Below, in pieces: positions 1 to 64,000 of a stretch of 64,000 nt of DNA. The notes under the pieces were generated by a model that was not told the DNA's origin, did not search any database, and saw only the letters and a list, made by a program, of their open reading frames with translations. Position 1 is the first letter of the stretch. Every line of letters begins with the position of its first letter. This DNA comes from Methanoculleus caldifontis (GTDB taxonomy: Archaea; Halobacteriota; Methanomicrobia; Methanomicrobiales; Methanoculleaceae): contig NZ_WBKO01000001.1 in assembly GCF_032842345.1 (NCBI RefSeq), positions 1,240,001-1,304,000 of the forward strand. Reading direction: 5' to 3'. A program made the translations under genes and the position numbers.

Positions 1-27
1 AGGCCGGTTCGCCTCCCCGCCCTGCGT

Positions 28-795: not shown

Positions 796-802
796 GGTCC
801 GC

Positions 803-1714
803 TCACTCCCGCAGGGTGCGGCCTGTCAGCCGCAGGAAGACGTCCTCAAGGGTCGCAGGGCGGACGGTCACCGCCGCCTCGTGCCGGCAGACCTCGAGGA
901 GGTCGCGTGCCACGTCGTGGGGGCGGTCCGTGAAGATCTGGAGCTGATCGCCGGCAGGGTCGTAGTCCACGCCGAGGTCGTTCAAGCGGGCGACCACCTT
1001 CTCCGTCCGCTCGACTTCGACGACCTCGCCCCCCGCATGCTCCCTGATGAGGTCTGCCGGGGGCCCTTCGACGAGGATCTTCCCGTGGTCCATGATCACA
1101 AGCCGGTCGCAGAGCCGCTCGGCTTCGTCCAGGTAGTGCGTGGTGAGGACGAGGGTGTTCCCCTGCGCCTGAAGGCTCCGGAGTTTCTCCCAGATCAGGT
1201 GCCGCGCCTGCGGGTCGAGGCCGATGGTGGGCTCGTCGAGGATGAGCAGTTCGGGTGCGTTGATCAGGGCCCGGGCGATGATCAGCCGCCGTTTCATCCC
1301 GCCGGAGAGCTTCTCGATCAGGACGTCCCGCTTCTCCTCAAGCTGCATGAACGTGAGGAGTTCTTCCGCCCGGCGTTCCGCCTCCTGCTTCTCGATGCCG
1401 AAGTAGCGGGCGTACACGAGCAGGTTCCGGTAGGCCGAGAAGTCGGGGTCGAGATTGGTCTCCTGGGGCACCACGCCGAGGCGGTTCTTGATCTCCCGCG
1501 GGTGCGTATCCGTATCCAGCCCAAAGACCTGCAGGGTGCCGCTGGATTTCGGGGAGATGCACTGGATCATCTTCATGGTCGTCGTCTTTCCTGCCCCGTT
1601 CGGGCCGAGAAATCCGAATACCTCTCCCTTCCTGACGTGAAAGTTGATGCGGTCGACCGCGGTGAGATCCTCAAACCGCTTGAAGAGGTCGCGGGCTACG
1701 ATGATGTCTCCGAT
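803..1714 (-). CDS. ABC exporter ATP-binding protein, apparent ATC start
   Basis: NodI/DrrA-like ATPase of about 303 residues that powers the downstream permease. Visible motifs are Walker A (GPNGAGKTTT, about residue 40), the Q-loop region VVPQETN, the signature LSGGMKRRL, Walker B LLILDEPT and the H-loop TTHYLDEAE. The first ATG (1576) lies just after Walker A and cannot be the start. Between it and the in-frame stop at 1736-1738 there is no ATG, GTG or TTG. The codon aligned with the usual start of the family (x-G-D-I-I-V-A-R-D-L) is ATC at 1714-1712, eight bases after a good Shine-Dalgarno (GGGAGG). The start is therefore either a rare ATC start or a start-codon mutation. Confidence 0.85.
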   Translation of the reverse strand: MGDIIVARDLFKRFEDLTAVDRINFHVRKGEVFGFLGPNGAGKTTTMKMIQCISPKSSGTLQVFGLDTDTHPREIKNRLGVVPQETNLDPDFSAYRNLLVYARYFGIEKQEAERRAEELLTFMQLEEKRDVLIEKLSGGMKRRLIIARALINAPELLILDEPTIGLDPQARHLIWEKLRSLQAQGNTLVLTTHYLDEAERLCDRLVIMDHGKILVEGPPADLIREHAGGEVVEVERTEKVVARLNDLGVDYDPAGDQLQIFTDRPHDVARDLLEVCRHEAAVTVRPATLEDVFLRLTGRTLRE

Positions 1715-1723
1715 TGTTTCTTC

Positions 1724-1730
1724 CTCCCTG
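1724..1730 (-). promoter_or_regulatory. Shine-Dalgarno deciding the ATPase start
   Basis: AGGGAGG on the minus strand, eight bases before the ATC at 1714. It fixes the expected initiation site of the ABC ATPase gene even though no standard start codon is present. Confidence 0.6.
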
Positions 1731-1913
1731 GGAGGTCATGAGGTCGTGCCGATAGAACATTCTTTCGCCTGCCTGCTACCCGGCCCTCCCCCGCGTGCAT
1801 GCACGCCGATCCCGGAGGGCCGGGCCGGAATTCTCTCCGCCCCGCCCTGCGTCCCGCACTCTTTTTGCCCGGAGAGAACCGAGTATTGTAATTCATCTGG
1901 ATGCGATGATACC

Positions 1914-2357
1914 ATGATCGACGGTGCTGAGGGATACGCCGGGGCGGGCAGGGCCATCTACCCGTCCGACGCGATATATGTCGGTTCGACGGACAACCGC
2001 GGCCGCGGGATCTTCGCCCGCAGGGATCTTGCGGCCGGCGAGTTGATCGAGGTCTGCCCGGTGATCGTGCTCGGCGGGGCGGACGAACAGGAACTCCTTG
2101 ATAAGACGCATCTCTTCGATTACTACTTCGCGTGGGGAGAGCACCAGGAACTGGCCGCCGTTGCGCTCGGCTACGGGTCGCTCTTCAATCACTCCTACCA
2201 TGCAAACGCGGATCACGTCTGCGACGTCGCGAGGGGCCAGATCCGTATCTACGCTCACCGCGGTATCCGGCGGGGCGAGGAGATCACCATCAACTACGGC
2301 GGCCGGCCCGACTGCCCCGACCCGGTCTGGTTCGACGTGGCGGACGAGGGTGAATAA
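1914..2357 (+). CDS. Small SET-domain protein
   Basis: A 147-residue protein that is essentially a bare SET domain. The N-terminal strand with GRGIFARRDLAAGE is followed by the cofactor and active-site motif LFNHSYHANADH (the NHS.xxN box) and EITINYGG. SET domains transfer methyl groups from S-adenosylmethionine to protein lysines; small archaeal versions are known, but the substrate here is unknown. The start is the ATG at 1914. The longer reading frame upstream overlaps the divergent ABC operon and looks like GC-rich shadow sequence. Confidence 0.8.
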   Translation: MIDGAEGYAGAGRAIYPSDAIYVGSTDNRGRGIFARRDLAAGELIEVCPVIVLGGADEQELLDKTHLFDYYFAWGEHQELAAVALGYGSLFNHSYHANADHVCDVARGQIRIYAHRGIRRGEEITINYGGRPDCPDPVWFDVADEGE

Positions 2358-2714
2358 CCCCCGCCCGGTTTTCACGGAGATCCCGGCCCTCCCATGCCGG
2401 GGGTTGCCTGAACCGTAGATCGGCTCATGGGGATGACCTCCCGGTTACTACAGGGAGGGTGCCGGGATCTCCAGTGGAATCCCGGGGGTATCCGGGGATC
2501 ACCGGTGGTCCGGGGGCGCCTCTATAGTTCTCCTGCCGCCTGCCGTCTCCCGGGGAGGTCCTGCCGCCGGATTGAACCCTCGGGGAACTTCCTTTATCTC
2601 GAGGAGATCTTCGGGGCCGGAGGAAGACCTGCGGCGGCAGCGGGGATTCCGGCCGTACGGGTGGATATCCCGGCTCTCTCTCACCCCGTAGCCCGACCCG
2701 GCCGCAGCCGGTGT
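2358..2714. other. Intergenic region without recognisable gene
   Basis: About 360 bases between the SET gene and the convergent exported-protein gene. Reading frames here are uninterrupted only because of high GC. I see no protein family, tRNA or clear hairpin. Confidence 0.5.
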
Positions 2715-3212
2715 CTACCTCCTGATGACCAGCTGCACCTGCTCGGTCCGCACGAGACCGCCGCCGCTCGCGGTCACCGTGGCGTCCACCCTCGCCGTGG
2801 AGACGAGGGGCGGGAGATCGGGGGCTGCGAACTCGTACCTGAGCGGAGGGTAGGGCGGGGAGACCATGGCAAGGTCACGGGTGTCGCGGTATACGCCCCC
2901 GAGCGCCGTAGCGGAGACCCTGACCTGTACGGGCTCGGAGAAGCCGTTCTCGGGCAGCACCGTGAGCGTGAACCTGATCGCGTCGCCGGACCGGGCCGTG
3001 GCGGTTGCGGGCGTCACGCTGATCGAGAACGAGCCGGACGCGCCCGTCACCGGTCTTCCCGTCATGACCGGTCTTCCGGGTCCCTCCTGCACCGGTTCCG
3101 GCTGTCCGCGGGGTGCGACCTCGTCCATGAGGAGTCCGTAGAGGACGACGGTGCCGGTGAGCGCGACGCAGAGGAGGGCCGCGACCAGGAGGGGGGAGTA
3201 TTCTCGTGCCAT
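2715..3212 (-). CDS. Membrane-anchored extracellular beta-sandwich protein
   Basis: A 165-residue protein with an N-terminal hydrophobic segment (about residues 8-29) that would anchor it with the C-terminal part outside. A Pro/Gly-rich linker leads to a domain from about residue 60 with alternating beta-strand pattern (FSISVTPATATARSGDAIRFTLTV), like an Ig/CARDB-type fold. No catalytic motif is visible, and I do not recognise a named family. It appears monocistronic, with a BoxA about 52 bases upstream of the ATG at 3212. Confidence 0.7.
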   Translation of the reverse strand: MAREYSPLLVAALLCVALTGTVVLYGLLMDEVAPRGQPEPVQEGPGRPVMTGRPVTGASGSFSISVTPATATARSGDAIRFTLTVLPENGFSEPVQVRVSATALGGVYRDTRDLAMVSPPYPPLRYEFAAPDLPPLVSTARVDATVTASGGGLVRTEQVQLVIRR

Positions 3213-3395: not shown

Positions 3396-3605
3396 TCAGT
3401 CGACGGCAACCATCACCTCTGTCGACTTCACCACGGCGTAGACCGCTTTACCGGCGGCAAGCCCGAGTTCCTCCACGGACTTCTTTGTGATGACCGCAGT
3501 GAGTTCCCCGCCGCCGTCCAGAGCAATGACGACCTCCGCGGTGACGACGCCTTCATTCACAGCCTTTACTCTTCCCGGGAGCTGGTTTCTTGCGCTCAAT
3601 TTCAT
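3396..3605 (-). CDS. Molybdopterin-binding (Mop/TOBE) protein
   Basis: A 69-residue protein that is a single Mop domain. It begins MKLSARNQLPGRV, with the typical SARN.L.G.V signature, and has the strand pattern VTAEVVIALDGGGELTAVIT ending in the KSVEELGL helix. Mop proteins bind molybdate or tungstate oxyanions as oligomers and serve as storage or sensor proteins, which suits a methanogen with Mo/W formylmethanofuran dehydrogenase. The start is the ATG at 3605; the longer open frame upstream is GC shadow. It has its own promoter with an inverted repeat. Confidence 0.88.
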   Translation of the reverse strand: MKLSARNQLPGRVKAVNEGVVTAEVVIALDGGGELTAVITKKSVEELGLAAGKAVYAVVKSTEVMVAVD

Positions 3606-3633
3606 GGCGCACCGCGGTCCGGCAGCCTGAACC

Positions 3634-3656
3634 ATATAAGTTTCGATCTCCGAAAC
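3634..3656 (-). promoter_or_regulatory. BoxA with overlapping inverted repeat, mop promoter
   Basis: On the minus strand CTTATATGG forms a BoxA about 30-40 bases before the mop ATG. Directly upstream lies a perfect 6-bp inverted repeat (GTTTCG and CGAAAC at 3640-3645 and 3651-3656, spacer 5). A repressor bound there would cover the BRE/BoxA. Confidence 0.45.
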
Positions 3657-3753
3657 CGTGCAGGAGACCGTGGTGAACGAGGGCCGATTACTGTGATCTG
3701 CTCTCTCCCCTTGATGGGGGTGTAAAAATTGGCGGGGCCGTACGCGCCCCGGG

Positions 3754-4761
3754 TCATGCCGCATCGATCCGGCGCATGAACTCCCGCACGGCGGCGAGGT
3801 AGGCATCGGTGGCTTCGAGATGGTGCTCGTGCGAGGCGTCTTCAAAGACCGCCAGTTCCGATCCCGGCACCAGACTCTGGAAATATGCCAGGGTCGCGGG
3901 CGGCGCTTCGTCGTGCTCCCCGCAGGTGAAGAGCACCGGGACCGGGATATCGGCGAGCCGGCCGGTGACGTTGAACGTCCGGAGCGTTCCGGTACAGGTG
4001 AACTCGCTCGGCCCCCACATGCCGAGATAGACCGGGAGGGAGAGTTTCTCAAACGTCCTGTTCAGGCAGTCGGGCCAGGCGGGGAGCCTGCAGACGTGCC
4101 GGGCGTAGTATGCCCCCATCGCCTCCTGGTATTTTGGGGTGTCGAAGTTCCCGGTCGACTCGGCTTTTCGGACGGTCTCCTGGATCTCTTCGGGGAACGC
4201 CGCCAGGTACGCCTGCTGGTCGGCGATCCACCGGCCGGTATCCAGGAGGGGCGCGGAGAGGATCAGGCTCTCCACGCCGTCGGACTCCGGGGAGAGCGCG
4301 TATGCGGCTGCGAGCCCTCCTCCCCAGGACTGGCCGAGGAGGTGCACCCGGCGAAGGCCGAGCGCGTCGCGGACCTCGCCGACCTCCGCGACGTAGCGCT
4401 CCACCGTCAGGAGGGAGGGGTCGTCGGGCCGGTCGGAGTTCCCGCAGCCGAGCTGGTCGTAGAAGACGACCGGCCTCTCGTCCGCGAGGGCCTCGAGCGG
4501 CTCAAGGTAGTCGTGCGATGCCCCCGGCCCCCCGTGGAGGACCAGGAGGGGCGTTCCGGCGCTGCTCCTGCCGACGACCCTGAACCAGACGCGGCCGCCG
4601 GTGACGTCGATGTAGCCTTCATGGGTGTCGCCCCCGGACTTCGTTATGGAGACGTTCGATCGGTCGTCCGTTCCGTCTGTCGTGATGCAGAGCGCGAGCA
4701 GCGCCGCTGCAGCCGTAAAAAAGAGTAGCAGCATGAGATATCCCCGGTACCTGTCTGGCAT
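3754..4761 (-). CDS. Membrane-anchored S33 alpha/beta hydrolase (proline iminopeptidase-like)
   Basis: A 335-residue protein with an N-terminal hydrophobic anchor (about residues 9-27), then an alpha/beta hydrolase domain. The oxyanion motif HGGPGASHDYL, the nucleophile elbow GQSWGGG, the acid region around GEHDEAPP and the catalytic His in EDASHEHHLE all match the S33 prolyl aminopeptidase/tricorn-interacting-factor group. It probably trims N-terminal residues from peptides at the outer face of the membrane. The ATG at 4761 is the first residue before the anchor. It stands alone, facing the mop gene direction. Confidence 0.85.
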   Translation of the reverse strand: MPDRYRGYLMLLLFFTAAAALLALCITTDGTDDRSNVSITKSGGDTHEGYIDVTGGRVWFRVVGRSSAGTPLLVLHGGPGASHDYLEPLEALADERPVVFYDQLGCGNSDRPDDPSLLTVERYVAEVGEVRDALGLRRVHLLGQSWGGGLAAAYALSPESDGVESLILSAPLLDTGRWIADQQAYLAAFPEEIQETVRKAESTGNFDTPKYQEAMGAYYARHVCRLPAWPDCLNRTFEKLSLPVYLGMWGPSEFTCTGTLRTFNVTGRLADIPVPVLFTCGEHDEAPPATLAYFQSLVPGSELAVFEDASHEHHLEATDAYLAAVREFMRRIDAA

Positions 4762-5054
4762 GGTCGAACCCCGGTATGCCCGGCCTGATCCCGGCCGCCT
4801 TTCCGGTATGTGCTCTGAAGATTGTTTGTCGGGGCATCTCTACAAAAGTTCCGAAACGAACCAGAGTCCCCGACGGTTCTCCGGCGCCCCTTCACCTTCG
4901 GGTTCGTGCGGCCGGGCCTGATCCGGTGCAGCGGCCGCGGATCCCCTGTCCGGCCGCGGATTCCGGACACATTCCGGACATTCGCCGCCCCGGCCCCGGG
5001 TTGAATCCGGCACATTTAGATATTCGATCCGATCCTCACTCTTCTGTGAGTGTG

Positions 5055-50719: not shown

Positions 50720-51742
50720 TCAGGACACCCTGCCCCGGGAAGGCTCATCCGCCTGCCCGCTCCCCTGGACGGCTTTCTTCAACCGGTATAGCCGGGAAGC
50801 CGCTTTTGAGAGGAGGACGACCCGCGAATGGACTGGAACCGGTTCCGCGCCGAACCTCTGTTTGCCCCGGACGCGGGGGTTGTCCGGCCGCTCCCGTCCG
50901 AACGATATCCGTTCGTAGCCGTTCTCGTACGCCCAGTTGATGCCCTCCCACGAGAGGTAGTGGGTGGGCGAGTATTTGTTCGGGAGGTTCCGGTTCAGTG
51001 CAAGGAGTATGAAGTAGGCCGTCTTCGTTAAGGGATCCAGTAATGCCAGATTGCCGCCGGCAAAGACGCCGTTGTTCGTCAGAACCGCAACTCTCACCTC
51101 ATCCGGGGAAAAGATGTCGATGATCCTCTGGAAGTATGCACGCGGCAGGACGTACCCGTTTATGTGGTTCAGGTTCTCGGTATAATACCTGTAAAAATCC
51201 TCGATGGCGTCCCCGTCCGAGACCTCCCGAACCGTGAACCCTCCTTTTTCAAACCGGGTGACCTTATAGCGGTCGTCTTTGGAGAGAATATCCTTCCATA
51301 TAGCCTCCGGGGGGTTATGGTTTAAGTCGAGCAGCATGTTGCTCCCGGCCTCGTTCTGGATGTTGTCGTACTCGATCCCCTCCACCAGGGCCGGGTCGTA
51401 GGTGTCAAAGAACAGGTACGAGTATCGCTTTGAGAAGAGGGATAAGACCTCGTTGACGTCGTCGGGATCGAAACTCTCTTGAAGCACGATATTGTTGTAG
51501 TCGGAACGGGGTATGCCGTTGAGGCCTCTGAATACGTTCATCGACTGCTCCACGAAGGGGCATATCCCGGCGACCTTTCCGTCCTTTAAGATCAGGAAAT
51601 ATCTTGATTTCAACTTCATCGCATCTTCTATCGTATCTCTCCATTTCAGACGGTGAAACGGAGTCCCTTCCGGGGATCGGGTGATGAACCCCTCCCACCG
51701 GTGAGCGTTGCTCTCCGATAGCGGTTCGATCGCATACGCCAT
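50720..51742 (-). CDS. FemAB/GNAT-like transferase, paralog 2
   Basis: 340 residues, closely related to the protein at 52119 ([69 protein letters not shown]). The C-terminal half carries the GNAT-like motif. It is transcribed with the FemAB-like gene at 49703. Upstream is the 12-bp tandem repeat and the divergent third paralog. Predicted to form amide bonds on surface glycan or lipid; this is inference. Confidence 0.8.
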
Positions 51743-51876
51743 GAGCGGGCACCTTGAACGACACCGGCATTAATGGTTTCCCTCGCCACAGGGCCGGTTG
51801 AACCGGTGTCCCGGCAGAACTGCCCGATCGTCAAGACCTGCCAGGATATTCTTTCTTTGCACGATTCCGGAGAGCG

Positions 51877-52070
51877 CCCGGGCACCCCCCCGGGCACCCC
51901 CCCGGGCACCCCCCCGGGCATCCCTCCGGGCATCCCTCCGGGCATCCCTCCGGGCATCCCTCCGGGCATCCCTCCGGGCATCCCTCCGGGCATCCCTCCG
52001 GGCATCCCTCCGGGCATCCCTCCGGGCATCCCTCCGGGCACCCCTCCCGGGCCTCCCTCCGGGGCATCCC
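51877..52070. repeat. 12-bp minisatellite, about 16 units
   Basis: Fourteen units in exact 12-base register (51877-52044) of the form YCCGGGCAYCCC, followed by two units of 13 bases with changes. Most differ only at two C/T positions. It lies between the divergent FemAB paralogs and ends about 50 bases before the start of the right-hand gene. The rest of 51743-52118 shows no gene. Confidence 0.95.
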
Positions 52071-52118
52071 TCCGGGAAGTGAAAATGTTAATACCGGTTA
52101 GCGGGCAGGTAACCCCTC

Positions 52119-53117
52119 ATGGCCTGCACGATCGAACTGTTATCCGATGACAACGCTCACTTGTGGGAGGAATTCAATGACCAATCTTCGAAAGGGACGC
52201 TCTTTCATGGTTTGAGGTGGAAGCAGATCCTTGAGGATGTCTTTGACCTGAAGCTGCGATACTATCTCATCTTAAACGATAGCCGGGTCGTCGGGATAAG
52301 CCCCTGGATCGAGCAGTCGGTGTTGAATTTTCGAGGGCTCGTCAGCGTCCCTCATTCAGAAGAGAACGGCATCGTGCTCGACGATCGGCTCGGCGCCGAC
52401 TGCCTCGATACGATCTTTTCGCTCTTCGCGAAGAAGTACTCGTTTCTCCACTTCAATGCGAGTCACCCCGCCCTGTCGAACGGGATCGGGTTCACTCATG
52501 AGGCGACCGTGGATACGGGCCATATGGTCGCGGACCTGCGGGAGACCCCGCCCGAAACCCTGTGGGCCGGGCTCTCGAAGAGCACGAAACGTAGCATACG
52601 CACGTTCGAGAACGACGGGTTTCAGGTACACGAGGTCCGCCAGTCCGGTGATCTCAAAGATTTTTACCACTACTACACCCGGAACCTGACGCACATCGGC
52701 GGCGAGATCCTGCCGCTTGCCTTCTTTGAGAGGGTATGGGACCTCTTCCCCCAGGAAGAACTGCGGAGCACCGTTTTAACAAAGGACGACATCTTTGCAG
52801 GCGGTTCGGTGGCCCTCCTCGATCCGGCCAGAAAGACCTTCTATGGGAGTTACATGGCGTTGAACCGGGATCTCCCGAACCGGTACACCCCTGCGTACTA
52901 CGTCATGTGGGAGAATATCAACTGGGCGTGGAAGAACGGGTATGAGCGGCTGTTCTTCGGACGACAGCGACCGGACCCGGAGAACCCCCGTTTCCAGAAT
53001 AAGGTAAAATTAGGAGCCCGGTACCAGCCGATCCGTTACAATCTCGTCCTGCTCTCCAGGCCCATCCAGATATCGTATAAGGTCCGGGGTATGCTCTCCG
53101 GGATCCGGAACGCTTAA
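52119..53117 (+). CDS. FemAB/GNAT-like transferase, paralog 3
   Basis: 332 residues, clearly a sister of the protein at 50720 (FHGLRWKQILEDVFDLKLRYYLIL; YMALNRDLPNRYTPAYYVMWENINWAWKNGYERLFFGRQRPDPENPR). The basic stretch SKSTKRSIRTFENDGF begins the transferase half. It is transcribed away from its sister, across the minisatellite. The pair looks like an inverted duplication. Substrate unknown. Confidence 0.8.
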   Translation: MACTIELLSDDNAHLWEEFNDQSSKGTLFHGLRWKQILEDVFDLKLRYYLILNDSRVVGISPWIEQSVLNFRGLVSVPHSEENGIVLDDRLGADCLDTIFSLFAKKYSFLHFNASHPALSNGIGFTHEATVDTGHMVADLRETPPETLWAGLSKSTKRSIRTFENDGFQVHEVRQSGDLKDFYHYYTRNLTHIGGEILPLAFFERVWDLFPQEELRSTVLTKDDIFAGGSVALLDPARKTFYGSYMALNRDLPNRYTPAYYVMWENINWAWKNGYERLFFGRQRPDPENPRFQNKVKLGARYQPIRYNLVLLSRPIQISYKVRGMLSGIRNA

Positions 53118-53200: not shown

Positions 53201-54406
53201 TCAGAGACCGGAGACAGTACCGGGAGCGAGCAGCCGGGTGTAGAGCTCGACGTACCGGCACGCCACGGACTCCCAGGTGTAGCCGGTGCTCAGCTCCCTT
53301 GCGGTGCTCATGTGCCGCTTCAGTTCTTCGGGGTTAGCCAGCAGGTCGAGGACCGCCTGTATGACCGTCTCATTCTCGTCCGTCCGGTCAAAGATCAGCG
53401 AGCATGCTCTCAGCCGGTCGGCGTGATCGATATCGGCCCTGACGATGGGAACCGTGCCGCAGACCAGGTACTCGTAGATCTTGTTCGGCGAGGTCTTCAC
53501 CCAGTACCTCGCGTCCGGCCTCACCAGGAGGAAGCCGATGTGCGCCTTCTCGGTGAGTTCGACCGTCTTCTCCCGGTGGACATAGCCGAGGAACCGGAAC
53601 CTGCCGTCGTGCTTTCGGGCGAGCTCCTCTATCTTCGCCCTCGACCCCTCGTCCATGGAGGTTCCGCCGATGGAGAAGGTCACGTTATCGTATGCGCGGA
53701 TGGCCGAATCGGCGATCTCGAGGAGGAGGTCGACGTCCCTGTCGGCAGCATTGTTGAGGCTCCCTATGTATACGGCGTGTATCTCCGGGTGAGGGCCGGA
53801 ATGATGGACCTTCTCATCGATCGCGCTCGTATCGTAGGCTGCCGATGCCGCATAGTTCGGGACCGCTACAACCTGCGACCCTGGAAACAACCCGCCGACC
53901 GCGTCCAGGTGGCGCTCCGAGACGACGACCGCTCCGGAGATCCACCGCTTTGCGAGGTCTTCGTAGAAGAGCGGTATGGAGAACCGCCCGAAGTGAACCC
54001 ACTCCTCATAGACTTCATGCCTGTCGTAGACGACACGGGAGTTCGGCAGGCTGTTCTTCGCCAGCATGCCTGCCAGCGGCAGCAGCAGGGGATCGTGGAC
54101 GTGAATGATGGATGGCCGTGCGGGGTCGATCCCGAGTGCGCTGAGCGCTTCGCGGCAGTCGGCAAGTATCTTCCGCCTCAAACAGTATCCCATAAAAAAC
54201 AGGGTCCTGGTCTTCCCCTGGAACTGGAAGCGGTTTATCCTGAACCCCTTTGCCCCGTACTGGGAGAAGATGCCCGGTTCGGCGGACTCGTCGGGGTAGT
54301 TGAAATGTATCCGGCAGACATTGAGACCCTGCCCGGCAAGGTAGGTGATATGCCGCTCAATCCTTACATCCTCCACCGGATGTGCATCCAGAACGATGAC
54401 GTCCAT
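53201..54406 (-). CDS. GT4 family glycosyltransferase
   Basis: 401 residues from the ATG at 54406 (MDVIVLDAHPVEDVRIERHI). The N-terminal domain has IIHVHDPLLLPLAGMLA and VVYDRHEVYEEWV. The C-terminal donor domain has HAVYIGSLNNAADRDVDLLLEI and KIYEYLVCGTVPIVRADID. The open frame continues 72 codons upstream but with no GT-like sequence. It is convergent with the FemAB paralog (84 bases apart). Confidence 0.87.
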   Translation of the reverse strand: MDVIVLDAHPVEDVRIERHITYLAGQGLNVCRIHFNYPDESAEPGIFSQYGAKGFRINRFQFQGKTRTLFFMGYCLRRKILADCREALSALGIDPARPSIIHVHDPLLLPLAGMLAKNSLPNSRVVYDRHEVYEEWVHFGRFSIPLFYEDLAKRWISGAVVVSERHLDAVGGLFPGSQVVAVPNYAASAAYDTSAIDEKVHHSGPHPEIHAVYIGSLNNAADRDVDLLLEIADSAIRAYDNVTFSIGGTSMDEGSRAKIEELARKHDGRFRFLGYVHREKTVELTEKAHIGFLLVRPDARYWVKTSPNKIYEYLVCGTVPIVRADIDHADRLRACSLIFDRTDENETVIQAVLDLLANPEELKRHMSTARELSTGYTWESVACRYVELYTRLLAPGTVSGL

Positions 54407-54618
54407 ACAGGTACCCGCCGGCACTGACGTCTCGATCCGGCTTATATCTAGCGACCTCCGGCATGCCGTGACAGACCCCTGCAGGTGCTCGTATCCGCGA
54501 AAGCCCCTCTCCCCTCGAACTCCTGCCTCAGCCGCGGCGGCGGGGGCCGTGCCTGTACACGGTAATTCGTTAGAATATTTGAAGCAGTCCACCCGGAGAT
54601 CAAACCATTGACTTCCCT

Positions 54619-54776
54619 TCACACCTGACGGTGCTCAAACTCCGTTTCTGAGGGAACGTCGCCTTTCGCACCTGACGGTGCTCACGCTCACTTCGTTCAC
54701 GCTTCACACCTGCGGTGTTCGAACTCCGTTCCTGATGGAACGTCGTCCTTCGAAGCCTGAGGGCTTCTCATGCTCG
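54619..54776 (+). repeat. Cluster of tandem-hairpin repeats
   Basis: Three related units: CACCTGACGGTGCTC at about 54623 and 54671, and CACCTGCGGTGTTCG at about 54708. The first and third are followed by a second hairpin with CTCCGTT and GGAACGTCG. A further one, GAAGCC-TGA-GGGCTTC, lies near 54755. The units match the reverse strand of the repeat at 22478-22565. Confidence 0.7.
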
Positions 54777-54783
54777 CTTACGC

Positions 54784-54868
54784 TCGCACTTCGCGTTCTT
54801 CGCGGCTTCGCGTGAGGCTCTGTCACACCCCTCTGTACTGAAAACTCACGCGAAGACGCGAAGTGCGA
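54784..54868. repeat. Long imperfect inverted repeat
   Basis: CTTCGCGTGAG (54806-54816) and CTCACGCGAAG (54845-54855) are perfect complements 28 bases apart. The stem extends with TCGCACTTCGCG (54784-54795) against CGCGAAGTGCGA (54857-54868). Such a stem could be a transcript end or part of a mobile repeat. Confidence 0.65.
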
Positions 54869-55065
54869 CGGACGGGACGTCCGGAGTTCGAGTGCCGAGA
54901 GGTGCGAAGTCCAGTGTCTGGGTGATGCGAACCCCGTGTTAAGTCATCGCACGAGGCCGTATCGTCCGATGTCGGGTGCCAAAATTAGCGAAGTACCGGT
55001 ACCGGGGAGCAGCCGGACGGGCCCCGGCCCGGTCTCCCCGCGGGCCGGGCGTCTTCCCCGCCCCT

Positions 55066-56184
55066 TCATCCCGCAGCAAGGCGCTCGAGCATATTCGCGT
55101 AGTTCATCGAGAGGACCTCCCAGTTCAGCATCCTCTCGGCGTAGGCCCTCGCATTCGATGCATGGTCGGGGTGCTCCCCGTCCAGGTAGCGGACGATCGT
55201 ATCAGCGGCCGTTGCGGTATCGTCGAGGGAGACCGTCGTCCCGCAGTCGGCCTCCCTCACGATGGCGAGGTTCGGGATATCGGAGACGATGCATGGCAGC
55301 CCCGAGGCCATCGCCTCCGCAAGGGTCAGGGGCGGCATCCCTCCTTCGTACTTCGATGTCATGATGTAGTAATCCGCGCAGGCGTAGAGGCCGGGGAGAT
55401 CCCTGTCGTGGTCCACGCTCCCGAGGAAGATGACGTTCTTTACTCCTATCTTCTCTGCCAGCTCTCTTGCCGCCTCCAGGAGTTCGCCCCCTCCGGCGAC
55501 GCAGAGGGTCACGTCTTTCTGTCGCCTCTCGATCTGCGAGAAGACCTCGATCAGGGCGAACGGCTGTTTCGCAGGGATCAGCCGTCCGACACTCAGGAGT
55601 ATGGTGCCGTCCTCCGGGAGGCCAAACCTCTTCCTGATGGCCTTCCTGTCGGGCGAGGGACGGAACCGCCTGACGTCAACCCCGTTCGGGATGTAGAATA
55701 TCCGGTCCCGGGCGATCCCTATCCGTTCGAGTTCCTCGCGAACCGGTTGCCCGACGCCGGTGAAGAGGGTGGCGGGAGGCATGCGGGTCAGGCAGGAGCG
55801 TTCTATCCGGGCGACAACCGACTCGTACAGGTGAAATGGAAGATTGCCGACCCCGAGATCGCTTGACCCGGAGTACGTCGAGTGCATCGTCACCAGACAG
55901 CGCTTGAACGGGTTTTCAGCGACGATGAACGGATTCTGGAGCCAGGCAGCATCGTAATCGTTGTCCCTGAAATGCTGCGAGACCCGGTACCAGTAGTTGA
56001 GCAGCCCGACGACACCCGCCTTCTCTATCAGGGGCCAGCTCCCGAGCCTGATATCGGGGCCTTTCGGGGAACAGACCGTACACTCCACGCCTCTCGATTT
56101 GAGTTGCTCGACGATGTTGTAGACGACGTTGGCCATGCCTGCGCCGTGGGGGAAGTATTCCGTCGTGCAGACGAGCAGTCTCAT
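55066..56184 (-). CDS. GT4 family glycosyltransferase
   Basis: 372 residues from the ATG at 56184 (MRLLVCTTEYFPHGAGMANV). The donor domain shows ILLSVGRLIPAKQPFALIEVF, and the acid motif lies in SKYEGGMPPLTLAEAMASGLPCIVSDIPN. It follows the next GT gene on the same strand (77 bases), so both probably come from the promoter near 57.59 kb. Confidence 0.9.
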   Translation of the reverse strand: MRLLVCTTEYFPHGAGMANVVYNIVEQLKSRGVECTVCSPKGPDIRLGSWPLIEKAGVVGLLNYWYRVSQHFRDNDYDAAWLQNPFIVAENPFKRCLVTMHSTYSGSSDLGVGNLPFHLYESVVARIERSCLTRMPPATLFTGVGQPVREELERIGIARDRIFYIPNGVDVRRFRPSPDRKAIRKRFGLPEDGTILLSVGRLIPAKQPFALIEVFSQIERRQKDVTLCVAGGGELLEAARELAEKIGVKNVIFLGSVDHDRDLPGLYACADYYIMTSKYEGGMPPLTLAEAMASGLPCIVSDIPNLAIVREADCGTTVSLDDTATAADTIVRYLDGEHPDHASNARAYAERMLNWEVLSMNYANMLERLAAG

Positions 56185-56260
56185 GCGAACGTCTCCGTCT
56201 CCCCCGGAAAGGGCGTTGTCGGGCAGGGTACGGCGGGAGAAACCGGCAGCCATCCGGTTC

Positions 56261-57415
56261 TCATCTCAGCACCTGATCGTATACGCCGACGATCTCTCTC
56301 GTGATGTTCTCCCATGTATACTGCTCCGAGCATGCGAGGATCGCCTCCCGGTCCCATTCCCGGTCCAGCGCAGTCAGGACTTTCTCGGCAAGATCGTCGG
56401 GGTTCGCGGGATCCACCAGCAGGCCGTAATCGTCTGAGGTGACGATCTCCGGAACTCCGCCGACTCTCGTTCCCACGAAGGGCTTCCCGCATCCGAAGGC
56501 CTCGAACATGACCGTCGGGTTGCCTTCGCTGAGGCTCGGCAGGACAAAGAGGTCGCAGGCGTTCAGCCAGAGCGGGATCTCGTCGTGAGGCTTCCCGCCG
56601 GCGAGCACGACATACTCTTCGAGGCCGAGCGACCGTATCTGCCGGTCAAGGGTGTCATAGAGCCTTCCGGGACCGACGATCACGCAGAGGACGTCCTTTC
56701 GCTTCTTCACGATCCGTGACATCGCCTCGATGAGGTACTCGTGCCCTTTGACTGCGCCGTAGAGTCTCCCGACGTTCAGGATCATCTTCCTGTCCGGGGG
56801 CAGGCCCAGCGCCTCCTTGCACTCCCGGGTGTCCATCGGCCGGAATTTTCCGTCATCGTAGCCGTTCGGAATCGTGACCACGTTTCGAGGGTGACCGGAC
56901 GGGCTGCGATCTGCCGCCGTGCCGCCGTTCTGCTGCGATATCTGTCTGGCGTCGGAATCCGAGAGGGCTACGGCCGTATCAACGGAGTTTAAAACGACCC
57001 CCCTGGCGCTCTTCTCGTAGATCCGCACGCACAGGTCTTTCATCGGCTCGCCGAACATCAACTGGCCGTGATGCGTGAGGACGATGGGGATCTTGCAGAA
57101 CTTCTTCAGTATCGGAAAGGAGAGCGCGGTGAAACTGTAGACGTTATGGATATGGATGACATCGAACTTTTTGAGTTCGTTTAAGAGAAGGAATATGGAC
57201 GGAACGAGAGGGTTTCTCAGCGGCTCCCCGAGGCATTTCAGCCTCCGGACGAGGATCCCGTCCATAACCTCGACGCTCCTTCCTTCGGGAACGTTTGCGG
57301 TTATCACCTCGACCGTGTGACCCTCGTTGATCAGGTTTTTGCTCAGGTTGTAGACGTACATCTCCATTCCGCCGTTATGCGGTAGAAAATACGGAGTTAC
57401 CTGTGCCACCCTCAT
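56261..57415 (-). CDS. GT4 family glycosyltransferase
   Basis: 384 residues starting MRVAQVTPYFLPHNGGMEMYVYN. It has VIHIHNVYSF, the donor-site MILNVGRLYGAVKGHEYLIEAM and the acid motif in PSLSEGNPTVMFEAFGCGKPFVGTRVGGVPE. It is the first gene of a two-gene unit with the GT at 55066. A BoxA about 175 bases upstream of the ATG implies a long leader. Confidence 0.9.
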   Translation of the reverse strand: MRVAQVTPYFLPHNGGMEMYVYNLSKNLINEGHTVEVITANVPEGRSVEVMDGILVRRLKCLGEPLRNPLVPSIFLLLNELKKFDVIHIHNVYSFTALSFPILKKFCKIPIVLTHHGQLMFGEPMKDLCVRIYEKSARGVVLNSVDTAVALSDSDARQISQQNGGTAADRSPSGHPRNVVTIPNGYDDGKFRPMDTRECKEALGLPPDRKMILNVGRLYGAVKGHEYLIEAMSRIVKKRKDVLCVIVGPGRLYDTLDRQIRSLGLEEYVVLAGGKPHDEIPLWLNACDLFVLPSLSEGNPTVMFEAFGCGKPFVGTRVGGVPEIVTSDDYGLLVDPANPDDLAEKVLTALDREWDREAILACSEQYTWENITREIVGVYDQVLR

Positions 57416-57753: not shown

Positions 57754-59700
57754 TCAGCGTGCGAGGTAATAGACCTCAATGCCTCTGTTTGAGTAGAGTT
57801 TGTCTTCTGTGGATACCCTGCCGGTCATGTTCCGGACGTTCTCCTCTGTGGGAAGGTACGGCAGGAGACCCTTCTCCGGGTCGAAATCCTCCTCCGCCAT
57901 CACCGCTTCCTGCCCGAGAAGCAGCCCGCCGCGCCGGAGCTGGGCGTCCGGGAGGATGATGTACCCGCCGCTTCCCGAGATGTTCAGGTCTCCCGGTATC
58001 AGGCGGTTGGTATAATATGGCAGCCCCAGACTCTCGGACTCGTTGATCTTCTTTCTTCCGAAAAACCGCAGCGTATAATAGTCTGAGTGGAGGGTGGATC
58101 CGTCCGGCGCCTTATCGAGTACGTAGCCGAACCCCGTGATCTCACCCTGATCGAAGGAGTAGCGGGTATAACTCGCCTCTTCTCTGACACAGCCCAGAGA
58201 GGTGATGCCGTAGAGGACGATCAGGGTGATCATCACGGCTCCAATCCATCTGGGCGAGATCTTCAGAGCGGCAAGGTACCGGGTGAGGACGTAGACCCCC
58301 ACGCCCACGGCGACGGCAAGGATGGGCAGGAACAGGATGGCAAACCGGTCGATCCGCAGAACCGATACCAGCTGAAAGATCACCGTAAGGACGCTCGGGA
58401 CATTCAGGATGATCGCTGCCAGTCCCAGCACGCCGAATATGATCGAGTATCCGGGCTGCTGTTTCCATATGAGATAAATGGCCCCGATCAGTGCGAAGAA
58501 GACGACGAAGAGGGTGTCGACCTGGCTCAGCAGGAAGTTCCAGCCCTGGTATACCGCCTCGGTGAGGACGATATTCTGATAGACGGCCAGGTCAGCGCGC
58601 GGGAAGAGGTCTTTCACGAATGGATAGGCTACGAAAAGCCAGTACCCGGCGAAGAGGGAGGCGGGGACCATCAGGAAGGCGAAACTCACACGTCTCCTCT
58701 CGCCGGTGAACCGCTCGAGGAAGAGTACGAGCCCGATCATGACGATGACCATGGGCATCGAGACTTGGTGAGTCAACAGGACGAACATGACCATGATCAC
58801 GGCAAAGACCCTCCTCGCGGCGGGCCTCGTGACGATGTAGCCCGTCTCCGGCTTTGCCTCCACCATCGAGTAGACCAGGTACAGGAGGATGATGAACCCG
58901 ACGTAGGCCATGGTCCTCGTCACCATATACGTGCCGTAGTAGATGACGTCGGAGTTCATTGCGTATGAGAGGACGATCAGGAGGGTGATCTGAGCGTTGC
59001 GGAAGACGCTGTTCGCCAGATAATACAGGAAGAGCACGGTCGTCGAGAAGATCAGGCCGGTGGTGATGAAGAGCGCGGTGTCTATGTCCAGGCCGAGCAC
59101 GTGCGATGACAGCGCCACGAAGACGTGGTACAGAGGAAAGTACGTGTACGTTCCAAGCTCGCCCGGAATGACGTGCCCCGAGAGGTAGGTGATGGTGGCC
59201 ATGTAACTATGCGGCATGAGATCCGTCGTCCCGAAGTAGAGTGCCGGCCGCAGGGTGTAACTGTAGATCGTGACCGCAAGCGTGAGCATGATCTCGACGA
59301 GCACTGTCGCCGGGCGCAGCCGCGCAGACATGATCTGGGCGAATATTACGGCATACAGGACGACCACCCCGAAAAGGCCTATTACAGAGTTGCTCGGGGT
59401 TACAAGGAAGGCCAGGACGGAGAGCATGAAGGCCGCCAGGAAGAACTGGGGCGAGATCAGGCGCCGATAAGGAAATAACTCCAGCGACCCTGAGAGGTCG
59501 ACATCCTTCTTCTTGATGAATACGAACGTAAATGCCCCGATAATTGCAGGAACCGCAAGGATCGAGCCGTTGATCAGATAACTCATCCTGTCGATCAGGA
59601 GGCAGAAGATGCAGCCTGCGATGTACGTGAAGAGTATCAGGTAAGGGAAGATCCCGGCCAGCCTCTTAAGTGCCGGCCTCACCAGTAATTGGACGTTCAT
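57754..59700 (-). CDS. Large polytopic membrane protein, probable GT-C type transferase
   Basis: 648 residues with about 14 membrane helices and a soluble C-terminal part of about 130 residues (from SYTRYSFDQGEITGFGYVLDKAPDG). The first large outer loop (YFGTTDLMPHSYMATITYLSGHVIPGELGTYTYFPLYHVFVALSS) has Asp, His and Tyr residues in GT-C style. This is a plausible membrane glycosyltransferase or polymerase, but no family name is certain. It is similar in plan, not in sequence, to the protein at 33614. Confidence 0.7.
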   Translation of the reverse strand: MNVQLLVRPALKRLAGIFPYLILFTYIAGCIFCLLIDRMSYLINGSILAVPAIIGAFTFVFIKKKDVDLSGSLELFPYRRLISPQFFLAAFMLSVLAFLVTPSNSVIGLFGVVVLYAVIFAQIMSARLRPATVLVEIMLTLAVTIYSYTLRPALYFGTTDLMPHSYMATITYLSGHVIPGELGTYTYFPLYHVFVALSSHVLGLDIDTALFITTGLIFSTTVLFLYYLANSVFRNAQITLLIVLSYAMNSDVIYYGTYMVTRTMAYVGFIILLYLVYSMVEAKPETGYIVTRPAARRVFAVIMVMFVLLTHQVSMPMVIVMIGLVLFLERFTGERRRVSFAFLMVPASLFAGYWLFVAYPFVKDLFPRADLAVYQNIVLTEAVYQGWNFLLSQVDTLFVVFFALIGAIYLIWKQQPGYSIIFGVLGLAAIILNVPSVLTVIFQLVSVLRIDRFAILFLPILAVAVGVGVYVLTRYLAALKISPRWIGAVMITLIVLYGITSLGCVREEASYTRYSFDQGEITGFGYVLDKAPDGSTLHSDYYTLRFFGRKKINESESLGLPYYTNRLIPGDLNISGSGGYIILPDAQLRRGGLLLGQEAVMAEEDFDPEKGLLPYLPTEENVRNMTGRVSTEDKLYSNRGIEVYYLAR

Positions 59701-59848: not shown

Positions 59849-61468
59849 TCAGTAATACTCGATCGGCCCCGATGCGGAGAACGTTCTGTTCTCGCCGATC
59901 AGGTTCTCCGTCACGAAGACCCCTCCCTGCCCGCCCGTCTGCCAGACCGGCGGTGCCTGGGTGTAGTAGAACCAGTTGTTGTGGATATACGCGCCGTCGC
60001 GTGGGACGCCCCGGATGGCGACCGGGAATGCGTTCAGGGGTCCCGTGGCAGTGAAGGTGTTGTGGTGGATCCGGATCGTGTCCCCCGCGATCATATCCGT
60101 ACCGGACGCCACCCCGTGCATATCGAAGTTGTGGGATGAGCCCGCGATGAAGTTCGGACCGCAGATGTTGTACCGCGCCTCGTACCCGTCCCCGGCGACC
60201 CCGCTTCCGGCGATGGCGTGCCGACAGTAATCGAAGTAGTTCGCCTCGATGAGAGCCACCGCCCCTGCCGAGACCACGACCCCGTATCCGAACCCCTCCG
60301 CCTGGCAGTGGTGGATGTAGTTGTGGTGGATGTATCCGCCGGTCTTCATCTCAGAACCGCCCGTGCCGGTGACTCCGATCGCTGCCCCGCTCCATCCCCG
60401 GATCTCGCAGTTGTCCACCTCCAGGTTGCGGTAGGCCGAGTAGATCCCGATGACGGTCGGGTCTACCGTCTCGATCCCGCTATGCGGCCCCTCAAGACGG
60501 AGACCGGTGATCCTCACGCCCTCCCCGCCGGCGACAAACCCGATCCGGTGGTCGGGGTCTGCCTGATCTAGGTAGATCAGCCCTCCCTCTGAGAGTGGGT
60601 ACTCGCCCTCGGGAGGGCTGTCGGGAGCCGCGACGTAGGCCCCGCCCGACGCCGTGAGGTCTCCGGTCTCTTCCAGGCCGGGCGACAGCACCCCGGACTC
60701 CGCCTCCATGCGGATCTCGCTCTCGCCGGCCGCCTCATCCGCGGTAACGCCGGGGAGGCGATCCGGGTTGCCGGTGATGAAGATCTCATCAAGGTTCAGG
60801 CCCCCCTCGCGCCAGTGGATATTCAGGATATGCTCTCCGGCGGGAAGGTAGCGGGCTCCTGCCCTGTTCCAGCGCCACGCCCCGTCCACTTCGAGATCCC
60901 ACCGCCTGATCTCCTCCTCGTCCACCGATACCCAGATAGCGCCCCTGCCCTCATCCCCTGCGGATGCCCGGACCCAGAGCACGTACTCCCCCGGCTCGCC
61001 GATCTCGAACGGATATGTTGCCGTCCCGGTTACGCTTCTCTCTCCCCTGTTTCCGGCAAGCGTGACGCCTCCCGGTATGGTCACGCTTCCCGGGGCGTCC
61101 GTGAGGTTGATCCTGGCTGTCTCATCGATGTAGATGATATCCCCGCTCTCCGCGTCCTGGAGGGCGGCGAGCAGTTCGTCGATGGTCGTGACGAGCATTT
61201 TGACTCCGGGATCCGCCGGGGTGAGCATATTCCGGTAACTCTCTCCCCCTCCGATGGGGCTTCCCGTGGGGTTTGATTCGGCACCGAATGCCTGCTCCGG
61301 ATCGAGAGTCGCGTTTGCCGGATCGGGCATCTCTGCAGAAAAGGTGGAAGCGACAGGATCCGTCACGCCCCTCTCCGGCACGTGGAAGTGGATCTCGATA
61401 GCCGAATGGATGACCAGACCCGCACAGAGCAGGACCAGACCCGTGAGGATGATCTCTCGTAGACGCAC
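59849..61468 (-). CDS. Membrane-anchored beta-helix protein B1 with nested carbohydrate-binding module
   Basis: 539 residues from a GTG at 61468. An N-terminal anchor (about 6-26) and linker lead to the B-type pectate-lyase-like fold (SNPTGSPIGGGESYRN; SGDIIYIDETARINL; GGVTLAGNRGER). At about residue 145 the helix is interrupted by some 150 residues of CBM6/35-like sequence. It resumes at GGLIYLD (about 295), then ITGLRLEGPHSG and ALIEANYFDYCRHAIAGSG, ending FSASGPIEYY. The paralog upstream lacks the insert. A BoxA lies about 30-42 bases before the start. Confidence 0.85.
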   Translation of the reverse strand: MRLREIILTGLVLLCAGLVIHSAIEIHFHVPERGVTDPVASTFSAEMPDPANATLDPEQAFGAESNPTGSPIGGGESYRNMLTPADPGVKMLVTTIDELLAALQDAESGDIIYIDETARINLTDAPGSVTIPGGVTLAGNRGERSVTGTATYPFEIGEPGEYVLWVRASAGDEGRGAIWVSVDEEEIRRWDLEVDGAWRWNRAGARYLPAGEHILNIHWREGGLNLDEIFITGNPDRLPGVTADEAAGESEIRMEAESGVLSPGLEETGDLTASGGAYVAAPDSPPEGEYPLSEGGLIYLDQADPDHRIGFVAGGEGVRITGLRLEGPHSGIETVDPTVIGIYSAYRNLEVDNCEIRGWSGAAIGVTGTGGSEMKTGGYIHHNYIHHCQAEGFGYGVVVSAGAVALIEANYFDYCRHAIAGSGVAGDGYEARYNICGPNFIAGSSHNFDMHGVASGTDMIAGDTIRIHHNTFTATGPLNAFPVAIRGVPRDGAYIHNNWFYYTQAPPVWQTGGQGGVFVTENLIGENRTFSASGPIEYY

Positions 61469-61711: not shown

Positions 61712-64000
61712 TCAGTAATACTTGATCGGACCCGATGCGGAGAGAGTTCCGCTTGAGCCAATCAGGTTGTTCGTCATGCTGATCCCTGTCTTTCCGCCGG
61801 TCTGCCAGACCGGTGCATCCCTGGTGAAGTAGAACCAGTTGTGGTCGATGTATGCACCGACACGGGGGACACCCCGGATGGCAATGCACGTCGGCATCTG
61901 GGAGGTCGTACCCAGGAACGTGTTGTGGTGAATCCGGATCGTGTCTCCTGCGATCGTGGTGGAGCCCGACGAGGTGCCGTGCATGTCGAAGTTGTGAGGC
62001 GACGTCGTGATCCAGTTCGGACCGCAGATGTTGTACCGTGCCTCATACCCGTCTCCGGCGTTTCCGGCTCCGGTGATGGCGTGCCGGCAGTAGTCGAAGT
62101 AGTTCGCCTCGATGAGCGCTACCGCGCCACCGGAGAGGCAGACACCATATCCAAGACCCGCCACCTGGTTGTGGTGGATGTTGTTGTGGTGGATGTACGC
62201 GCCCGTCTTCATGTCGGAACCGCCGGTGCCGACAATGCCGATTGCGGCATTGCCCCAGCCGAAGATCTCACAGTTGTCCACTTCGAGATTCCGGTAGGTG
62301 GTGTAGATACCGACGTTCGTCGACGATGCGCTGGTGCCCTTCTGAGGGCCTTCGATACGGAGACCGGTGATCCTCACATTCTGGCCCCCGACCGTAAAGA
62401 GCCGGGTTCCGGCCGTCGTCTGGTAGATCCTGCCGCCGAGCGACCCGTTCTCGCCACGGTTGCTCGCGAGGGTAACCCCGGCGCGTATCGTGGTGGTCCG
62501 GCCGCTCATGTCGATGTTGGCGTTCTCCTCAACCCAGATGATCTCTCCGGACTTTGCGGAGCTGAGCGCGTTTACGAGCTGGTTCGTCGTGCTGACGACG
62601 TAGTTCGCACTGCTCTTGCTGACGCCGTTCTTGTACCCGCTACCTCCCCCTACCGGGCTTCCCGTGGGGTTGGCGTCCGCCCCATAGACGTTCTGGCCGG
62701 GCGTCGGCGTCGGTGTCGGCGTCGGTGTCGGCGTCTTCGTCGGCGTCGGGGTCGGAGTTGCGGTAGGTGCCGGTGTCGGCGTCTTTGTAGGCGTCGGCGT
62801 CGGCGTTGCCGTGGATGCACTCACCGTCATCGTCCTGGTGAGGACGTTGTTGGTCTCGTTGCTCTCCGCGATCCTGTCCACGTCGTCGACCGTCGCGGTG
62901 ATCGTGTAGGTGCCTGCGGCTGCAGTCCAGGTTGAACCGGAAACGCCGCCGTTGGCAGTCACCGTGGCCGATTCGCCGGGAGCGATCGAGGCCGTGTGGT
63001 TGTCGGACCAGACCGCGGATCCCAGACTTCCGCTCGACGTAAAGGCTACGCCATGAGCCTTGCCGGACGGTGTCGCAGCAGTACCCTGGTTCGCAATCAC
63101 CGCTTTCATCGTGATCGTGTCACCGGTTACCGGGTTTTCCGGCACCCAGGAGATCTCGGTCACGACAAGGTCGGGCGTGCCGGGTGCTGCCGTGGGGGTT
63201 GCCGTCGGCGTCGCGGTCGGCGTTGCCGTTGGCGTGGGTGTTGGTGTCGCCGTCACTGTCGGTGTCGGCGTGGGAGACGACGTCGATTTAAACTCGACGT
63301 ATGCCATGTCGACCCATCCGGTGTCCATGGCTATCTGCACTGTGTGCTTGCCGGCGGTGAGCGGAATCTGCGCTGTGACCGGGGCAAACGTGTACCAGCT
63401 GCTGGTGTTGGGAGCGTTGACCGTGGCGACCTTCTCCCCGTCCACCAGCACCGAGAAGGTTCTGTCGTTCCCGGTGGTGCTGACGTAGAATGTGGCGTCG
63501 TAGGTGCCCGATGCAGCCACCTCCACTCCGGAGAACGTAAGCCATTCTCCTGCGTAGGTGTAGGCAATGACCGGCACGTCGACGGCGTTCCGTGTGCTGA
63601 TATCCACGTCTGTGTCATCGGTGCGGTATGTTGCATCGCCCTGGTTGCCGGCTACGGTGTCATGGTAGGCAACCCCTTCCCCTCCATAGTCGAAATCAAC
63701 AAAGTTGATACGGCCGGGCACTGAGTGCGCCTTGTAGGGCTTCTGCGCATCGGAAGGATCTTCCGTGCCAGTATCGGGGTTTGAGACTTTAACTTCGACC
63801 GGACTGCCCAGAGCATAGGTTCCGGCCTGGAAGAGTATGGTCCCGTTGCCGATGGCCTTTACTGCGGTCTGTATGACGTTGCTGTCATCCTGTCCCGCGA
63901 CTCCGCTGCTGATCACCTGACCAGTGCTGTCTTCTGCAATGACCGTTGTACCGTCGATGTACACAAGGATATCGTAGGTACCCTGTGATACCTCCTGATT
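61712..64000 (-). CDS. Beta-helix protein B2 with CBM-like, CARDB and Pro/Thr linkers (5' end outside the window)
   Basis: 762 codons are visible and the frame is open to the window edge, so the N-terminus is missing. In order: a carbohydrate-binding-like domain (RINFVDFDYGGEGVAYHD ... WYTFAPVTAQIPLTAGKHTV), a Pro/Thr repeat linker, a CARDB domain (TPDLVVTEISWVPENPVTGD) close to that of A3, a second Pro/Thr linker and a C-terminal B-type beta-helix (DANPTGSPVGGGSGYKN ... ALIEANYFDYCRHAITGAG ... LSASGPIKYY). It is a surface adhesin or glycan-binding protein by architecture. The GTG at 63964 is inside a beta-strand and is not the start. Confidence 0.85.
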   Translation of the reverse strand, partial: NQEVSQGTYDILVYIDGTTVIAEDSTGQVISSGVAGQDDSNVIQTAVKAIGNGTILFQAGTYALGSPVEVKVSNPDTGTEDPSDAQKPYKAHSVPGRINFVDFDYGGEGVAYHDTVAGNQGDATYRTDDTDVDISTRNAVDVPVIAYTYAGEWLTFSGVEVAASGTYDATFYVSTTGNDRTFSVLVDGEKVATVNAPNTSSWYTFAPVTAQIPLTAGKHTVQIAMDTGWVDMAYVEFKSTSSPTPTPTVTATPTPTPTATPTATPTATPTAAPGTPDLVVTEISWVPENPVTGDTITMKAVIANQGTAATPSGKAHGVAFTSSGSLGSAVWSDNHTASIAPGESATVTANGGVSGSTWTAAAGTYTITATVDDVDRIAESNETNNVLTRTMTVSASTATPTPTPTKTPTPAPTATPTPTPTKTPTPTPTPTPTPGQNVYGADANPTGSPVGGGSGYKNGVSKSSANYVVSTTNQLVNALSSAKSGEIIWVEENANIDMSGRTTTIRAGVTLASNRGENGSLGGRIYQTTAGTRLFTVGGQNVRITGLRIEGPQKGTSASSTNVGIYTTYRNLEVDNCEIFGWGNAAIGIVGTGGSDMKTGAYIHHNNIHHNQVAGLGYGVCLSGGAVALIEANYFDYCRHAITGAGNAGDGYEARYNICGPNWITTSPHNFDMHGTSSGSTTIAGDTIRIHHNTFLGTTSQMPTCIAIRGVPRVGAYIDHNWFYFTRDAPVWQTGGKTGISMTNNLIGSSGTLSASGPIKYY

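Follow-up and report, generated by a model that had tools for sequence, protein, structure and literature searches.

The window is a stretch of 64,000 nt from Methanoculleus caldifontis (positions 1,240,001–1,304,000 in the 1.78 Mb contig NZ_WBKO01000001.1; the genome is 2.6 Mb). Gene B1 is located at positions 59849–61468 on the minus strand. Its ORF is intact, starts with GTG and encodes 539 aa, including a hydrophobic anchor or signal segment at the N-terminus; the N-termini of the orthologs read MRSKE-VVLVALILL.... The ORF, Pfam and an ortholog alignment show that the whole gene consists of a beta-helix with a nested, permuted CBM35-like domain. B1 adjoins, on its upstream side, the paralog B2 (61712–64000, minus strand; ORF and Pfam). 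B2 extends beyond the window end and has a canonical CBM6, a CARDB domain, Thr/Pro linkers and a B1-type beta-helix without the insert. Downstream of B1 is a gene for a multi-spanning membrane protein of 648 aa (57754–59700, minus strand), for which a Pfam scan gives no match, and further downstream in the B1 cluster there are three GT4-type glycosyltransferase genes (53201–57415, minus strand), both identified from ORFs and locus comparison. The order B2, B1, membrane protein is kept in most orthologous loci, and glycosyltransferases are often nearby. Elsewhere in the window, at positions 51646–52150, short-period repeats (GGMP / PPGI) that are readable on both strands are found directly upstream of a FemAB-like gene.

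The sole Pfam match in B1 is Beta_helix (PF13229, aa 341–498, E = 1.4e-6). The N-terminal part of this host beta-helix consists of aa 59–144 (61037–61294, minus strand) and ends right after the invariant R141-G142, as determined from alignments A3 and A4. The C-terminal part consists of aa 294–539 (59852–60589, minus strand; alignment, Pfam and structure match), and its DNCE, HHNYIHH, EANYFDYCRH, YEARYN and DMHG motifs are conserved. The host is a right-handed beta-helix, with a VIA-align 2 Z of 28.0 and an rmsd of 2.5 over 264 residues when compared with the PL31 alginate lyase 6KFN, and Z values of 20–25 when compared with AlgE epimerases, tailspikes and PL6 lyases. The right-handed parallel beta-helix typical of PL31 and PL6 is thus present by both this match and Pfam Beta_helix. 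A profile of the host alignment A3 matches BcAlyPL6 at 6.9e-9. B1 appears to be a beta-helix protein of the cell surface, of the structural type seen in polysaccharide lyases and epimerases and most like PL31. PL31 PsAly (6KFN), the PL6 lyases and the AlgE epimerases share the fold of the B1 host, but their sequence identity to B1 is ~18 percent or less. We know of no nested CBM35-like module in PL31, PL6 or AlgE proteins.

The original prediction was that B1 carries about 150 residues more than B2 between RGER and GGLIY. The insert is found to be 149 residues (aa 145–293), located between the invariant RG and the GG(L/R)IY of the host, and both the host alignment and the host structure match place it inside the beta-helix, as proposed. 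B1 and its orthologs have 142–147 extra residues after NRG(E), except for 103 in the arm-less B1 of locus L052. The host comparison set has ~100 sequences from 77 genome loci, mostly bacterial (Latescibacterota, Planctomycetota, Gemmatimonadota, Armatimonadota and others), and in this set an insert at the RG site is exclusive to B1 orthologs. One other host in the set bears an insert, but a different one in a different place. This member (L068:4585–7497, from an Acidobacteria MAG) has a laminin-G domain nested at another loop, and the WWGFEED strand, which is normally first, seems to be last. A permuted laminin-G is no more than suggested here, as rotation adds only 3.5 bits and shuffles score as well as the short arm; it is a lead only.

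The insert consists of a body, a linker and a displaced arm. The body (aa 145–240; 60749–61036, minus strand) represents canonical CBM35-like positions 42–136, as defined by the rotation scan, the AlphaFold2 sandwich and PDB matches. The linker (aa 241–250; 60719–60748, minus strand) joins the canonical C-terminus to the canonical N-terminus and is fast evolving according to the ortholog alignment and the dN/dS count. The displaced N-terminal arm (aa 251–293; 60590–60718, minus strand) represents canonical positions 1–41, as defined by alignment, rotation scan, shuffles and predicted strands. In the window the order is body (YPFEIGEPGEYVLWVRA...LDEIFITGNPDRLP), linker and arm (MEAESG...ASGGAYVAAP). 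EAESG is invariant across all armed orthologs and is followed by ASGGAYV. The unpermuted relatives start with the arm, e.g., in L035: EAESGTL..PM....ASGGKYIVVP...GTATYAFDV...WREDGTKLDKLFIT. The linker is 10–20 residues in length, which is similar to the linkers between adjacent canonical copies.

The strand order was compared with a reference HMM made from six canonical copies, i.e., three tandem copies in each of the loci L035 and L036 of a sister genus. For each of 12 B1 inserts, every other circular rotation was aligned to this profile. In the native order the best alignment spans profile positions 42–136 only, with a mean of 76.6 bits. When rotated at the linker, all 12 inserts show a single alignment that spans positions 1–136 (± 2 positions at the start), with a mean of 100.8 bits, and the peak of the scan is at the linker in each case. 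Because this is one non-overlapping alignment, the insert represents one whole domain with each position present once. The cut is between canonical positions 41 and 42, in the loop that leads from strand two (GGxYV) to strand three (TATYxF). The arms of the 12 orthologs score 15–47 bits against a canonical N-arm profile (23.0 bits for the arm in the window). Among 2,400 shuffled arms the highest score is 10.6 bits, which is exceeded by every real arm; the homology of the arm is therefore not due to chance. The predicted order, with the body first and the N-terminal strand last, is found in 12 of 12 inserts. Neither two partial domains nor a non-CBM fold is seen at the sequence level, where the pieces form one complete domain without overlap, and by sequence comparison the permuted arrangement of the insert is confirmed to be real.

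The insert had also been proposed to be a CBM6/35 domain, which agrees with the fold of its body but not with a Pfam family match. The body displays a beta-sandwich jelly-roll characteristic of the CBM35/CBM6 superfamily, with a Foldseek E of 1.1e-5 to a GH26-CBM35 and VIA-align 2 Z values of up to 9.7 (rmsd 2.3, 91 aligned residues) to CBM35/CBM6 chains (3zm8, Z 9.7; 2cdp, Z 9.5; 2w47, Z 8.4). No CBM60 chain is present among the matches listed for the body, which has no bearing on kinship. The body aligns to CBM35/CBM6 domains from about residue 36–42 on, to ~131, so it lacks strands one and two of the canonical domain, a stretch of ~35 residues that equals the arm in length. The insert has an EAE(S/N) strand and then a GG.Y(V/I) strand as in this superfamily, and the conserved Trp, Asp and EAES positions are retained. 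The canonical strand order of CBM35 or CBM6 is absent, as determined by the rotation scan. The Pfam CBM models PF16990, PF18099 and PF03422 show no match to native or rotated inserts at E up to 10, and Pfam plus NCBIfam scans of both forms give no usable CBM match. A search of PDB sequences with the insert profile yields a best E of only 0.18, to the agarase CBM6 2CDO. A close canonical relative has a sub-threshold CBM_35 match (7e-5). Because a Pfam CBM match is lacking, the insert is termed CBM35-like and is not filed as a family member.

AlphaFold2 modeling of B1 aa 56–539 with 57 sequences has a mean pLDDT of 83.8 and a pTM of 0.83. The beta-helix is confident, the body has a pLDDT of ~67–83, and arm residues ~257–288 reach only about 30, yet the model has a strand at the EAES position of the arm. 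A model of the insert alone, from a 12-row alignment, has a pLDDT of 62, with a good body (75–83) and a poor arm, and shows strands at both expected arm positions (aa 251–255, as in the longer model, and also 278–280). Structure prediction therefore reproduces the body as a CBM35/CBM6 sandwich without its first ~35 residues, but the arm is poorly modeled (pLDDT about 30–60 across both models). Since the confidence of the arm is low, we infer its packing: it most likely folds back on its own body as strands beta1-beta2, which would complete the domain. The same low confidence in a monomer model, together with the existence of one arm-less ortholog, would also fit a domain swap, in which the arm, though a genuine beta1-beta2, docks on the body of a neighboring B1 to form a dimer or an array. 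The linker of 10–20 residues should be able to reach the body of its own chain, and a swap is considered unlikely.

The original prediction called for a search for the same permutation in other archaea. The full insert is found in 15 genomes of five genera and two families, and the permuted order is kept in 15 of 16 B1 genes, all within one order. The exception is B1 of Methanoculleus chikugoensis (L052:5902–7377), where the body is kept and the arm (~40 aa) is deleted. Among 393 sampled genomes of the phylum there is no other nested permuted copy; other matches are canonical, tandem or partial. A scan of viral contigs yielded no relative. Candidates for further permuted copies in G036/G037 and L152 were rejected, as they are tandem arrays read out of register. 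In a phylogenetic tree the rotated inserts and the canonical copies form two groups (99/97 support), with all permuted inserts in one clade, which is consistent with what was probably a single permutation event. In all usable pairs dN is lower than dS in the body and in the arm, as determined by a simple Nei-Gojobori count in which some synonymous distances are saturated. At the level of these counts, body and arm are shown to be under purifying selection. The linker is the fastest-evolving part of the insert, and in most pairs the insert evolves faster than the C-terminal part of the host.

The host-domain tree has a different feature: B1 pairs with B2 of the same genome in L050 (100/99), and there is an L051/L053 clade (100/100). 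This suggests that gene conversion may have occurred between B1 and B2 in the L050 and L051 lineages, with the nested insert spared. Locus L039 (G035) has two B-type genes (~1–3081 and 3400–5030), both with an N-terminal canonical CBM6-like domain and without a nested domain; the second begins with a B1-like membrane-anchor sequence.

The closest canonical relatives of the nested domain by sequence are the arrays of L035 and L036 (G036/G037), which differ from the insert in that they are in canonical order, are present as three copies at the C-terminus of an unlike protein and are separated by PTPTP linkers. In such an array, the body of one copy, the linker and the arm of the next copy form a contiguous stretch that is collinear with the insert, e.g., G037:C2:54488–54919 (profile positions 5–144, E = 3.5e-36). 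The permuted unit probably has a single origin, and this collinearity suggests that its source was a tandem CBM array read or excised out of register. Because the canonical relatives are in tandem arrays and L052 has no arm, the insert might instead be the leftover of a tandem pair that lost its first arm and last body after insertion, i.e., two partial domains with a vestigial arm. As an origin this equals permutation by duplication then trimming, but a vestigial arm is not in keeping with the invariance of EAESG and with dN below dS in the arm, and this explanation is very improbable.

Permutation had been proposed to be needed to bring the ends of the module together for insertion into a loop. 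The termini of canonical CBM6/35 domains lie side by side, and an unpermuted CBM35 is nested in the barrel of the CITase described below, so this argument is weak. An out-of-register unit, or duplication then trimming, accounts for the permutation with no particular requirement that the ends be adjacent. It is conceivable, though doubtful, that out-of-register excision from tandem CBM or lectin arrays is a general route to nested permuted modules in the B1-type beta-helix family, with the B1 insert as the conserved example, the laminin-G insert of L068 as an independent second, and permutation selected since it would set the binding face over the catalytic groove.

The separate elements of this architecture have precedents. 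A natural circular permutation relates CBM36 to CBM60, two Ca-dependent families (Montanier et al. 2010, J Biol Chem 285:31742, as described in PMC4725902 and PMC4444583). CBM36 belongs to the same class of beta-sandwich folds, and a CBM36 chain matches the B1 body at Z 8.5, but these families differ from that of the B1 insert. To our knowledge, the permuted module in that case is appended and not nested in a catalytic domain. In GH66 CITase (PDB 5x7g, 3wnk) a CBM35 (Gly421–Gly547) is nested in the catalytic barrel and protrudes from it; it binds sugar at the joint and at a loop region (PMC5408701). The insertion of a CBM35 in a catalytic domain resembles B1, but the host is a TIM barrel and the CBM35 is in canonical order: the B1 body aligns to CITase residues 454–548, compared with 421–547 for the whole CBM35. 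In phage depolymerases, e.g., KP34gp57, a beta-barrel of ~100 aa is inserted near N-terminal cap 1 and completes the substrate pocket (PMC10653864; Class 2A, PMC13385381). Its fold and its place in the beta-helix resemble the B1 insert; these hosts are phage tailspikes, however, and the insertion domain is without description as CBM35 or as permuted. Two candidate precedents were rejected, GH141 XynE, proposed for a CBM6 in a beta-helix, and KP32gp38, as the CBM6 of the former and the CBM of the latter are C-terminal. Permuted CBMs, nested CBM35 and nested beta-helix domains are thus each known singly. Permutation and nesting in a beta-helix combined were not found in the open-licence papers searched, in agreement with the earlier statement that no described example with a beta-helix host is known, and within that literature the combination in B1 is new.

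The reading that we consider likely is that B1 is a surface beta-helix with a nested, permuted CBM6/35-like jelly-roll, which has its arm folded back, holds a glycan and originated in a tandem array. The jelly-roll is permuted between canonical strands two and three and sits in a helix loop close to the N-terminal cap. By analogy with the insertion domains of phage depolymerases, the module most likely keeps an acidic extracellular glycan in place above the groove of the beta-helix, and B2 may do the same job with its ordinary N-terminal CBM6. It is possible, but less probable, that the insert has lost sugar binding and serves the beta-helix only as a structural lid or stalk. The absence of a Pfam CBM match and the faster evolution of the insert relative to the C-terminal host part would be consistent with a lid, and in depolymerases the main effect of the beta-barrel insertions is on the shape of the active-site cleft (PMC10653864). 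On the other hand, the CBM35/CBM6 fold is kept with its Trp, Asp and EAES positions, and the partner B2 carries a canonical CBM6. For the glycan-holding module, the membrane-anchored B1 would likeliest act on the acidic surface polysaccharide of its own cell, with the nested domain presenting the chain to the groove. Sugar binding, catalysis and the biological role of B1 are putative and are drawn by analogy.

Profile libraries miss domains such as the B1 insert, as Pfam detects only the beta-helix. The insert is a clean natural example of a carbohydrate-binding-type module that is both permuted and nested. Because unpermuted relatives and an arm-less derivative are present in the same archaeal family, the route that leads from a tandem array through an out-of-register unit to a nested domain can be tested by comparison. 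The content of the gene cluster around B1 suggests that the protein helps to trim or modify the polysaccharide on the surface of its own cell.
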